Assembly: GCF_001638985.1 (NCBI RefSeq)
Contig: NW_017265163.1
Coordinates: 372,001 to 436,000, forward strand
DNA length: 64,000 nt
Source: Phycomyces blakesleeanus NRRL 1555(-)
Lineage: Eukaryota > Mucoromycota > Mucoromycetes > Mucorales > Phycomycetaceae
Reading direction: 5' to 3'
Every line of letters starts with the position of its first letter. Positions within the stretch are counted from its first letter, which is position 1. The position numbers and the translations under genes are program-made. The notes under the pieces are model-generated. The model saw nothing but the letters and a program-made list of their open reading frames with translations, did no database searches and was not told the DNA's origin. Below are positions 2,372 to 19,089 of the stretch, piece by piece.

Positions 2372-4398
2372 ATGCTTACTCCTGCCGCCGAAAACCCACT
2401 TCGCGAACAGGGCCTTCCTGCCCCCTCTCCAACTGGCTACAACAATGTACCTGCCTTCAACAAGCCAGTAGAACTTACAATCGAGGGTACCATTCCAGAG
2501 TGGGTAAATGGTGTCATGTACCGTGCAGGTAAATAAAAAAAAAACAATACATTGCGATATTAGATATGAAGCAGATCATTAAACAAGAATAAATCTTAAA
2601 AAAATAAAATAAAAGGTTCTGGCCGTTATAATCTTCTGCTTGAGAACGGCGACACATTCCACATCGGACATCCTTTTGATGGCCTTGCAATGTTGCACCG
2701 TTTTGAACTATCTGGTGAGACGCAGACTGTTCAGTACTCCTCACGCCACACCTCCCACGGAGTAGAACGTCGTATTCGAGAAAAGGATCCTACACTTCTC
2801 ACTTTTGGTCCAGATCCCTGCAAGACTATCTTTGGCCGTATCCAGTCTGTCTACCACCACATCTCCAAGTTCGGCGCAAATGCACAGATCCAAGAAGGCG
2901 ACCCGGAGTTCGATATGGTTAATGTTACCATCACACCAAACTTCCCGCTTGGTGAGCGGCTTGAGGCCGAGACAGGTGTTAAGCGCGGTGATGCTCTTGT
3001 TGTCAAGAGAGATGCCAACACACTTCAGTTGGTCGATAACAAAACCCTTAGTAAGTTCATTGCATAAAAGTCTGGTAGCCAAATTTACTTACCAAGCCTA
3101 TAGAACCTATCAAGATGTTCACTTATGGTCATGTCAATGATAAGCTCCAGGGTCAGCTTTGCGCTTCTCACCACCAGTATGATGAAGAGACCGACGAATA
3201 TGTCAACTTCACCGTCAGACTCGGTCCAATCCCTTCTTTCCAATCCTATACACTTGGTCCTTACTTGCCTACTCCCCCAGGCTCAAAAGAAAAGATGCCT
3301 GCCCCTCAGGTTCGCTTACACGAACCTATCTATCGTCATCTTGGTGCCTGGCGTACACTCGAACCTCTCAAACCTGCGTATATTCACTCCTTCAGCATGA
3401 CAAAGAACTATATCATTGTTCCCAATTTCCCGTATTACTACAGTTTTGGCGGCATGTCGGCACTGTATTACTCTTGTGCCTATCAAACCTTCTATTGGGA
3501 CGAAACTCGCCCCACTCTTTTCCACGTTGTTGACCGTAATACCGGTAGACATGTCGCTACATACGATGCTGACCCATGCTTTTCTTTCCACTCTGCAAAT
3601 GCCTGGGATGAGGAGGTGGATCTCCCAGGAGGTGGTAAAGAGCGTGTGATTTACATGGACTACTGTGTATATGAAAACACCGATATTGTGGATGCTAGTT
3701 TCGATCTCGGTAAAACACCTACTGGATTTGATGCTTCCAAGGTCGAGCCTGCACGTTTCAAGATCAAGAGACACACTGATGATAAGAAGGATAACAGCAT
3801 TTCTCCTTCGCAGCTTAGACGTTATCGCCTTGGAAATGTGCCTGTCAGCTCTAATGCTCCCGAAACTTCGCGCTGGTCGCCAAAGGGAATTACGGGCCTG
3901 CTTTCCGGTATCTTTGATTTCAACAAGCGTCGAGTGGCATCATATACAGTATTGGGCTCCGATATTGAGCTTCCTCGCTTCAATTCAAACTTCAACCTTC
4001 GCAAGTATCGCTATGTGTGGGGTGTATGTGAGTCAAAACATGCGCCATCTTATGCATCTGGTGCCGTTGTAAACGGTTTGATCAAACTTGATCTTGATAA
4101 GCCCACATTGTGCAAGAACACAGAGGAGGGAAGCTCAGCAAAAATTTGGGATGAGCCCGGCTGTTCTTGTTCCGAGCCCATTTTTGTCGCCCACCCTGAG
4201 CAAAGAGCAGAAGATGACGGTGTACTTATTTCAACTGTCAACACCACAACTCCCGATGGAAAGGAATCATGTTTCCTGCTCATTGTTGATGCTGCTACAA
4301 TGGTTGAAGTGGGCCGCACCACTCTGGGTGCATTCACTGCCATGACCATTCACGGCAGTTTTGTTGATACCAACGGCAAAGGTGTTGCTGTTAACTAA
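2372..4398 (+). CDS. Carotenoid cleavage oxygenase (CarS/AcaA-like)
   Basis: Three exons (2372-2528, 2616-3050, 3104-4398) joined at GT-AG introns give a 628-residue protein of the carotenoid oxygenase (RPE65/CCD) family, which cleaves carotenoid polyenes with a non-haem Fe(II) held by four histidines. All four expected histidine contexts are visible: SHHQYDEETDEY (H220/H221), AYIHSFSMTKNY (H292), FSFHSANAWDE (H360) and TIHGSFVD (H614). In Mucoromycota such enzymes turn beta-carotene into trisporoids, the sexual pheromones, through an initial C40 cleaver (CarS/Tsp3) and a second apocarotenoid cleaver (AcaA). Which step this enzyme performs cannot be decided here. The start was chosen as the first in-frame ATG, giving an N-terminus MLTPAAENPL before the TIEGTIPEWVNGVMYRAG motif typical of the family. 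The gene converges on the resolvase gene. Confidence 0.9.
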
Positions 4399-4654: not shown

Positions 4655-5542
4655 TTATTCAGCATGTTCAATTATCGTCGCATCAATCATATCCAAGGAA
4701 AACCGGCGCCATTTGTACCACGCCATTGCTTGTAATAAGCTATCGCTAAGATCGTCCTGCTTCTTTTCCTGCTTGTATGTCTCTAATATGTTATCGGGAC
4801 ACAATATATCTTGCTTTTTCTCGAGTAAAGTATTGACTAAAACCACACACGCCTTCTTTTTGCCATAATACCGCCGCAGACTTTCATCTGTCCATCCCTT
4901 AAGCGCTTCATCCCAGGTTTTATCAACTGCTGCACGTTGAATTGGTTCCATCAACATGATATTGGTGGTTCTAATTTCTTCAAGAGCATACCACATCATT
5001 GCTTCTATAGCATTGACTCTGATTGTAGACTCTAGCACACTATGTGCACCCCCTGACCGATATCTTTGTTGTTCAACAACCACAGCTCCTGCTTGGTTCA
5101 TCAATGGTGCAATTTGGGAGTGTACAAATTGACGTATCAAGGGAGCTGTAATTGATGGATGAAATGACGGCAAAGCTAGATCAACGCGGATCCAGTTACG
5201 GATGGTGTTGGTACTGTCTAGATGACAAAAAGCCATGTTACGATAGCCAAGATCGAATGAGATTACAGAAGATGGAAGAGCTTTTTCACGAATATATTCT
5301 CCATGAACATTTCCATTGGTGATGATTCTTTCATAGTGATTCTGGAGACGGGTTACAAGTTCCTTCTTAAGTCCACTTGTGGCTAAGCCACTATGGTTCA
5401 TGATCTCCTTGAGCTGGCGTCCTTTTTTGGTAGAAAGACTTATTGGGGATGAATTGAATGTGTTGATTCAAAGCTACCTTTGTGACACTAGTTGGAGTAC
5501 ACGTTCAGTGTGAATTGACCTCCTGAGCACCTGGCCCAACAT
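4655..5542 (-). CDS. Cce1/Ydc2-type mitochondrial Holliday-junction resolvase
   Basis: The large exon (5438 down to 4655) encodes a SAP-type DNA-binding motif (LKEIMNHSGLATSGLKKEL), then the RNase H-fold resolvase core: SFDLGYRNMAFC with the first acidic residue, AVVVEQQRYRSGG, and a C-terminal DDLSDSLLQAMAW acidic cluster. This is the layout of Cce1 (Saccharomyces) and Ydc2 (S. pombe), which cut four-way junctions in mitochondrial DNA. The core has an ATG at 5401, but that start would cut the SAP motif. An upstream exon (5542-5478) joined through a 39-nt GT-AG intron (5477-5439) keeps the frame, completes the SAP helix, and adds an Arg-rich, acid-poor leader beginning MLGQVLRRSIHTERV, which looks like a mitochondrial presequence. 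The joined protein would be 282 residues. The short intron is an inference. Confidence 0.85.
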
Positions 5543-16296: not shown

Positions 16297-16722
16297 TTAA
16301 ACTCCTTTGGGTATAACTACGGTGATTGTATCTGCAGATTGTCCCCACTGTACTCGCTTATTTACAAATACAGCATACCAGGTAGTCAGAGCAATAAACG
16401 ACAGAATACAGCCAGCCAGTGACATGAGCACATCTATTCATTGATAACCTCTCCTTGTTCTTAGTCAAGGTACCCCTTTTTTGTTTGTTTTTTTTTTGTT
16501 TATTATTTTTATGTGTATATATTCTTTATTATAATTCCACGCAGACTTTCTTGGTTTCTTACACTTTCGAAGGGCAGGTGGAGCTGTTGATTTGCGACAC
16601 ATGGTGAAAAAGTACATGACATTTACCAGCCAGAGGAAAGGGAGAAAGGCAAACCCACCATAGAACATCTTTTTGCTAATGGTTATTAGCTCATCATTGC
16701 TCATCTTGTCTAGCTTTGGCAT
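16297..16722 (-). CDS. PEN-2, gamma-secretase subunit
   Basis: Exon 1 (16722-16563) and exon 2 (16433-16297), joined at a canonical GTAAGA...TAG intron, encode 98 residues; animal PEN-2 has about 101. The N-terminal half contains KMFYGGFAFLPFLWLVNVMYFF, in which GGFAFLPFLWLVN is the invariant PEN-2 block. The second half reads YVLMSLAGCILSFIALTTWYAVF followed by a short tail ending in VVIPKGV, matching the TM and the conserved C-terminal tail of PEN-2. PEN-2 binds presenilin and triggers its endoproteolysis and activity within the presenilin-nicastrin-Aph1-PEN-2 complex. Frame and splice phases were checked codon by codon. An upstream in-frame AUA/UUG-type extension is not supported; the ATG at 16722 fits the family length. 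Divergent from the signal peptide peptidase gene 845 bp away. Confidence 0.92.
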
Positions 16723-17566
16723 CTTGAATTTTATATATATATATATATACAGGCGTATTCTTTTGAATTGAGAAAAAAAATACAATAGAAAAATGAAGGA
16801 ATAGTAATTATACCTTTATTTTGTATTTGCACAGCAATTGTAGCTTTTCATTTGTCAATATTTTAGATGTCCGAGACTTATAGTAGTAACCGTTTTTCGA
16901 TACACATTTTTTATTCGATCTCTTACCAATACAAAAAAGGGCATTGGCCTCCTTTTTTTCCTTTGGATCACATAAATATCTACTCTTCCATACGGCTTTA
17001 TTATGTCTATCTATGTAGTCTATCTACATTCATAATGATTATTTCTATTACTAATACTGCTGATGTACTGTTGAAAGAATTAATTTATTCTAATGGGAAG
17101 TTGTGGAGTGTAGTCACTAAAATCGTGTCCTGATTAGTTTTTCCTCTATTGCTAATATTCATAGAGGGTTGCCAATTGAGCACTGCGCCTAGTATTCTAC
17201 AATTAGACTGCCAACTGTGTAGGATCAAGTATAGTTATTACTGTTAATTATTATTATTTTTTATTGAAAATCGGGGTCTACGTCAGAAACAATTATAATA
17301 TAAAAAAAAAAGACTTGTAATTTTAATGGCCTTGTCATTTTGACACGTAGCGGTCGAAAGGTGGAGGAAGTCAAAATTAGCGGAACCCAAATTCATCTGC
17401 CTGTAATTATATACACACACATACACGCACTAATTAGCCTCAGGGGCAAAATGAAAAGAGTGAACAAGCCAATTATATATATATATATATATACAGATAT
17501 TTCCCTTTTGACTTGCTCTTCTTCCTTTTCCTTTTCTAAAAAAAAAGAAAAACTTCAATTTAAATT
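16723..17566. promoter_or_regulatory. Shared upstream region of PEN-2 and signal peptide peptidase
   Basis: The 844 bp between the divergent start codons contain AT microsatellites at about 16735-16750 and 17477-17493 and no convincing coding frame. Both promoters are expected here; no specific element was recognised. Confidence 0.45.
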
Positions 17567-19089
17567 ATGGAAAGCACCAAGGAAGCTGGGCTCTTCATTG
17601 CATATGGAGCCCTCATGTCAATGGCTCTCGTTCCCATCTATGTGGGTTCTATCGCCTCTCTCAAGACAATGAAACGACCCGAAAACGCACAGAAGTCCAA
17701 GAAATCTCTCTCTCCTCTCGATGACTCGGATGATGAAGATGTTGGTGCAGACACACTTACAACCAACGATGCTTTGATGTTCCCCATCATCGCTTCCGGT
17801 GTTCTCTTTTCGCTTTACATGATGTATCGTTATTTGGACGAACGTTACCTGAACTACGGTATTACCGCCTATTTCTCAATTGTTGGTTGTGCAGCCATGA
17901 CAAAAACAGGTTTGATGGTAGCAAAGGCTGTAACTCCCCTCAGCCTCTTGAAGAATGTTGACAAGTATAAGGTTTCTTTGAGCAAGGGAGGAAAACGTAA
18001 GTTAATAAAATATCCCCGCATTTTTATGTGTTGATCCCAATGCTATATTGATTCTAACGGTGTATGTGTGTGTGTGTGTGTGTGCGTGTGTTTGTTCATT
18101 AGGCTTGAACCATCTCAGCTTCACTGTGGTCCACATTGGTCTTGCTGTCCTTTCTATTTTAATGACCATCTACTATGGCATCACAAAGAACTGGGTGGCT
18201 TCCAATCTTTTTGGTCTTTCTTTCTCAGTCAATGCTCTTACCTTGTTGTCCCTGGGATCATTCACCACCGGCATGAGCCTTTTGGCTGGTCTGTTCTTTT
18301 ATGATATCTTTTGGGTGTTTGGCACAGATGTCATGGTGAGTGTTGCCAAGAACTTTGATGCCCCTATCAAGGTACTCTGGCCCAGAGATGCCATCGCCTA
18401 CTTCCTGGGTGATCCTACCGCCATTGGATTCACTATGCTTGGATTAGGTGATATTGTTATTCCTGGTAAGAATATAGTTTCTCTTGGTATAGAATATCAG
18501 TGCACGACAAGATTATAATGAGTTGTACGCAGTTAATAAATACTAAAATATCTTGTTTGTACTTTATTATTGTTATTTCTTGTCTCTAGGTGCTTTTGTT
18601 GCTCTTTGCCTCCATTTTGATCGCCACATGGCCTGGAAGCGTAATCCCGTCGGTGATTTCCGTTCCACTGATTTCCCCAAGCCATACTTCATTGCCTGCT
18701 TCGTAGCTTACATTGCCGGTCTGGCAACCACCATGGCTGTCATGCATATTTTCCATGCTGCTCAGCCTGCCCTGCTTTACCTTTCACCTGCCTGTATCAT
18801 TTCTGCTTTACTGACTGCTGCTGTACGTGGTGAAATCAAAGAACTCTTTAGCTTCTCGGACGAAGAGACTGAAGAAGAGAAGGAAAAGAAGTCAAAGACC
18901 AAGGAAGTCAAGGAGGCCAAGGAAGAAAAGAAAGAGGAAGAGAAAACAACTGTTGTAGAGACTGTTGAAATTGAAACCGACAGTGTTAGTGAGATGAACG
19001 TTGTAGTATCAGAGTCTGAAGAGGAAACTGTTGTTGTTAAGTCTCCAAAGTCCGGAGGAAAGAAGAAGAAGGGAGGAAAGAGAAAGTAA
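17567..19089 (+). CDS. Signal peptide peptidase (presenilin-like aspartyl protease)
   Basis: Exons 17567-17996, 18103-18465 and 18590-19089 encode 430 residues. The active-site motifs of the A22B family are in place: YD at 210-211 in GLFFYDIFWVFGTDVMVSVA, GLGD at 257-260, and PAL at 324-326 in AAQPALLYLSPAC. The segments FDAPIKVLWPRD and NWVASNLFGLSFS identify signal peptide peptidase rather than presenilin. The enzyme cleaves type II membrane segments such as signal-peptide remnants in the ER membrane. About nine hydrophobic segments are visible. The C-terminus carries a long Lys/Glu-rich tail ending GGKKKKGGKRK, larger than the short lysine-rich ER-retention tail of animal SPP. Intron 1 contains a TG repeat near 18063-18091. 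Confidence 0.95.

Follow-up and report, generated by a model that had tools for sequence, protein, structure and literature searches.

At positions 16297–16722 of a 64,000-nucleotide stretch of DNA (the window; C33:372001–436000 of the genome searched) lies a short gene that raises two questions, namely whether it encodes an intact PEN-2 and whether the other subunits of γ-secretase, an intramembrane protease familiar from Alzheimer's disease, are encoded in the same genome. For Fungi plus Microsporidia, represented by four genomes of which one was microsporidian, none of the γ-secretase genes was recorded in 2009 (available part of PMC2770060). Components in the anaerobic fungus Orpinomyces were later credited to Youssef and others 2013 by an article from 2021 (available part of PMC10512342), and γ-secretase in non-Dikarya fungi was stated in a survey from 2023 (available part of PMC10406608); what our case shares with both is the complex, or components of it, outside the Dikarya, whereas domain architectures and gene neighbours are not given in either of these parts. 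Because the presence in non-Dikarya fungi had already been published, the presence of γ-secretase here correctly adds a further case to a known pattern, and its novelty is low. The preliminary description of an intact PEN-2 in a fungus therefore stands as to the host, the genome looking fungal by its Fungal_trans hits, 47 when each exon is counted separately, and by a CDR-type ABC transporter in the window, but not as to novelty.

The PEN-2 gene of the window

The gene lies on the minus strand, at C33:388297–388722 of the genome, and, read as the reverse complement and spliced, consists of two exons encoding 98 residues. Exon 1 (16563–16722) comprises the ATG, the N-terminal segment, the block GGFAFLPFLWLVN, the first membrane segment and the loop; it is followed by a 129-nt intron (16434–16562; GTAAGA...GAATAG) and by exon 2 (16297–16433) with the second membrane segment, the C-terminal tail and the TAA stop. 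The GC content of the intron was determined to be 28% versus 43% in the exons, and stops interrupt the frame if it is left unspliced. A scan of possible joins, with the donor placed 100–220 nt into the piece and intron lengths of 40–250 nt, revealed six that keep the frame open. Only removal of the 129-nt intron, which is the one predicted in the preliminary description, leaves the two membrane segments and their connecting loop intact, and the resulting product aligns with solved PEN-2.

The translated product matched the Pfam family PF10251 with an E-value of 3.7e-28 and 98.2 bits (cut-off 25) over positions 2–93 of 93, a score so far above the cut-off that the assignment is not due to chance. 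A search against solved structures returned two matches (E 5.5e-18 and 1.4e-17), each listed as gamma-secretase subunit PEN-2. With the better of these, chain D of PDB 5a63, which we take to be the human protein, the alignment covered residues 4–97 with one 3-residue gap, and 37 of the 94 aligned residues (39%) were identical. The two proteins are alike in length class, in the block GGFAFLPFLWLVN, which was found exactly, as had been claimed for an invariant block, in their two hydrophobic segments and in the near end-to-end alignment. They differ, apart from the identity of 39%, in the fungal loop, which is three residues shorter, and in the replacement of DYLSF by DTITV. The hydrophobic segments of the fungal protein were located by hydropathy at residues 24–42 and 51–69. 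The C-terminal tail had been called conserved; it is present and in frame, reading ADTITVVIPKG where solved PEN-2 has GDYLSFTIPLG, but within the DYLSF stretch, which is important for the stability of the complex, D alone of the five positions is identical. Genome-wide, PEN-2 was found at one place, as two exon hits in the exon-by-exon profile search. From these comparisons of sequence, the window gene is confirmed as a real, intact PEN-2.

Partner subunits and the complex they may form

All three partners that had been predicted, presenilin, Aph-1 and, with more reserve, nicastrin, were found by profile search, which was run exon by exon over the whole genome (53,498,309 bases, 60 contigs), and were obtained as spliced models. 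Presenilin was located at no fewer than two places on contig C5, with at least 10 hits (76 of 146 candidates scored), Aph-1 at one place on contig C1 (3 hits) and nicastrin at one place on contig C4 (2 hits). The profiles of PEN-2, presenilin, Aph-1, nicastrin and signal peptide peptidase (SPP) matched in none of 14 control genomes and thus stand without a positive control.

Splicing by hand gave models of 626 aa for presenilin A (C5:351313–354333, corresponding to L021:814–3834), 463 aa for presenilin B (C5:642951–644876, corresponding to L022:1452–3377), 242 aa for Aph-1 (C1:2043936–2045125) and 685 aa for nicastrin (C4:1543643–1546480, minus strand). Since the exon joins of the partners were picked by hand in comparison with the human subunits, the completeness of these models is partly built in. 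For presenilin B and Aph-1, automatic prediction of the splice sites with codon-use weighting was rejected, as its products had lost membrane segments or ended early. The partner introns are mostly of the GT-AG type with a pyrimidine preceding the AG; AAG acceptors occur in intron 2 of presenilin B and in the last nicastrin intron. The presenilin A intron at L021:2049–2184 has a GCAAGT donor and is likely a GC-AG intron; none of the GT-AG joins tried there preserved the frame, and the GC-AG join did. With a crude hydropathy cut-off, the segments counted were 6 per presenilin, 5 for Aph-1 and 8 for SPP; 9, 7 and 9 membrane segments, respectively, are expected.

The main domain of every model exceeded its Pfam cut-off by a wide margin, with most of the profile covered. 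Presenilin A matched PF01080 with 397 bits across all 408 positions and presenilin B with 333 bits over positions 2–407; the best solved relative of both was presenilin-1 (E 3e-71 and 1.8e-59, respectively). The catalytic motifs are intact in both proteins, as WDL, GLGD and PALP in presenilin A and as YDV, GLGD and PALP in presenilin B. Aph-1 scored 179 bits over positions 3–224 of 231 of its profile, with APH-1B as the best solved relative (E 1.9e-27). In nicastrin, the small and the large lobe were recognised by Pfam with 155 and 116 bits, the large lobe being covered over positions 2–196 of 218; hydrophobicity is strong in one segment close to the C terminus (654–672) and marginal in a second at 266–284. 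Its best solved relative was 4r12 (E 6e-60), listed as 'Putative uncharacterized protein' and presumably the Dictyostelium nicastrin, and the chains named 'Nicastrin' followed with E 2e-33; these and the other named solved subunit chains we take to be human. The alignment with 4r12 extends over residues 31–649 of 685 and stops short of the fungal membrane segment.

Between the two presenilins, an identity of 29% was determined over 478 columns, and the duplication is therefore probably old. Presenilin B was found to lack, after PALIY, the hydrophobic MVWLV-like stretch that presenilin A (VNAVWFMV) and solved presenilin-1 have kept. As this stretch is presumably the place of self-cleavage, cleavage of presenilin B may differ from that of presenilin A and presenilin-1.

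All four subunit kinds are thus present as long open models, each once and presenilin twice. Judged from these sequences, the product of the window gene is very probably the PEN-2 of a complete γ-secretase of ancestral type, in a fungus that most likely stands outside the Dikarya. An origin of the genes by contamination or by recent transfer from an animal is so improbable that it was rejected. Nothing was found in its favour; PEN-2 is 39% identical to the solved protein, the subunit genes contain many short introns, and nicastrin scores better with 4r12 than with the chains named Nicastrin. Moreover, the contigs that bear the genes are long, with 2.6 to 4.5 Mb for C1, C4 and C5 and at least 436 kb for C33; Fungal_trans hits occur on the first three, and the CDR-type transporter lies in the window on C33.

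In the animal complex, presenilin is added to a scaffold of nicastrin and Aph-1, and PEN-2 binds last. If the fungal subunits behave likewise, assembly would follow the same order, and binding of PEN-2 would trigger self-cleavage of presenilin to give the active two-aspartate protease. Such a complex might also be assembled for a mainly non-proteolytic role, presenilin serving as a scaffold or in trafficking as reported for a moss; in Physcomitrella and in mammals, presenilin is described as having γ-secretase-independent roles (available part of PMC2770060), but WD/YD, GLGD and PALP are intact in both fungal presenilins and all four subunit kinds have been retained, and we consider this role unlikely to be the main one.

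A complete γ-secretase in a fungus is of interest for what it could reveal about the role of the complex outside the Notch pathway, for which a species that has all subunits, among them two old presenilins, would be suited; such use depends on a growable and editable relative having the same genes. To our knowledge, functional work on γ-secretase has been done in animals, plants and slime moulds, and none of the literature matches listed was, by its title, a functional study of the fungal complex, most subscription journals being outside the search.

The N terminus of presenilin A

Exon 2 of presenilin A contains about forty open codons ahead of the first membrane segment, with no ATG among them. 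Upstream of it, an exon at L021:814–1144 was found that starts with an ATG, is preceded by an in-frame stop at L021:760 and encodes a MYND finger; a predicted 176-nt GT-AG intron, with TACTAA near its 3' end, would join it to exon 2. In the spliced presenilin A model, the MYND domain scored 25.2 bits (cut-off 22.7) over 39 of 39 positions, and among the 13 MYND matches of the genome-wide search the one at presenilin A had 32.1 bits. The region between the finger and the membrane is open and acidic and aligns weakly with presenilin-1 from residue 34 on, from which it follows that translation of presenilin A probably begins upstream of the first membrane segment.

Open GT-AG joins that place an upstream ATG in the presenilin frame numbered 36, counted with the earliest ATG per join; in 11 of them this ATG is that of the MYND frame, and in 25 it belongs to another frame of the same exon. 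The latter would require translation of the MYND exon in a frame without the finger, and the count speaks in part against the fusion as the sole possibility. As a further reading, presenilin A may start at the methionine that immediately precedes the first membrane segment, the MYND frame being a separate short gene. Against this reading, the sequence leading up to this methionine is open, acidic and weakly aligned with presenilin-1, exon 2 offers no other ATG, and the MYND frame ends within eight codons past the proposed donor. On the predicted splice, we give an even chance to presenilin A being a fused protein, in which an intact presenilin bears a MYND finger at its cytosolic N terminus.

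This model is the part that a specialist would find unexpected. No report of a MYND–presenilin fusion was found in the literature searched, as judged by titles, co-mentions being incidental, and the word MYND is absent from the main text of the 2023 survey (PMC10406608). If real, a presenilin with its own zinc finger would represent a new architecture of the catalytic subunit. MYND zinc fingers read short peptide motifs, and the finger, if the model is true, would be a built-in docking or recruitment module of the protease, with a substrate tail or a transcriptional regulator as the ligand; the unfused presenilin B and the PEN-2/SPP gene pair would then mark a further division of labour among GxGD proteases.

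Possible sheddases, the neighbouring SPP gene and the rest of the window

By analogy with the animal complex, the fungal protease would cut membrane stubs after a sheddase has removed the ectodomain, and ADAM-like proteases may perform the latter step. Genome profile search revealed 4 hits of reprolysin-type metalloproteases on two contigs; this profile also matches in 2 of the 14 control genomes and alone is no marker of a sheddase. At L025:1486–3302 on contig C1, an ADAM-like gene lies in separate open pieces, with matches to reprolysin at 63.6 bits and to disintegrin at 43.4 bits; one piece is without any match, and the final one has a hydrophobic segment at its end, after which basic residues follow. 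Read from its unjoined pieces, the locus has the layout of a membrane-bound ADAM. A CSL-type DNA-binding domain (LAG1-DNAbind) was found at six places with 9 hits (contigs C2, C4, C6, C20, C23 and C40), and these domains are no evidence of a Notch-like pathway; the Notch-type LNR domain gave no match in the genome profile search and none in the 14 control genomes either.

Head to head with PEN-2 lies the only SPP gene found, the profile search having placed signal peptide peptidase at a single place of the genome, within the window on C33 (3 hits). Its model of 430 aa (17567–19089, plus strand; PF04258, 242 bits) consists of exon 1 (17567–17996), exon 2 with the YD and GLGD motifs (18103–18465) and exon 3 with the QPALL motif and a lysine/glutamate-rich tail (18590–19089); the three motifs are shared with the A22B family. 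The start codons of the divergent pair are separated by 844 bp (16723–17566), a possible shared promoter.

This arrangement would fit a PEN-2 that has been taken over, under a shared bidirectional promoter, as a partner of the SPP, instead of or besides its place in γ-secretase, the more so as random gene order would place the two genes side by side in about 1 to 2 of 10,000 cases. This figure was calculated post hoc with an assumed 10,000 to 20,000 genes, and for any of the five subunit genes beside SPP it rises, on the same assumption, to 5 to 10 in 10,000. The ordinary partners of PEN-2 are, however, present as two presenilins, Aph-1 and nicastrin, and SPPs act as monomers or homodimers (available part of PMC13026331). 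The SPP family is separate from γ-secretase and, as far as known, works without PEN-2, which makes the gene a neighbour and not a subunit. As a single case of linkage, the pair is indistinguishable from coincidence; we regard such a takeover as very unlikely and the linkage as a curiosity, and retain the assignment of PEN-2 to γ-secretase.

Of the 20 open frames scanned in the window, 3 were without a family. A TauD-type oxygenase gene lies on the low-coordinate side of the PEN-2/SPP pair. On the other side, a DEP-RGS regulator was found, as well as EH domains adjoining a frame whose UBA match does not reach the cut-off, a locus that we assume to be Ede1-like. A carotenoid-oxygenase gene of the RPE65 family (2600–4395) is present in at least two open pieces; together with the genome size, it may hint at Mucoromycota. 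A Ydc2/MRS1-type mitochondrial resolvase domain together with a SAP domain is encoded at 4658–5467 on the minus strand.
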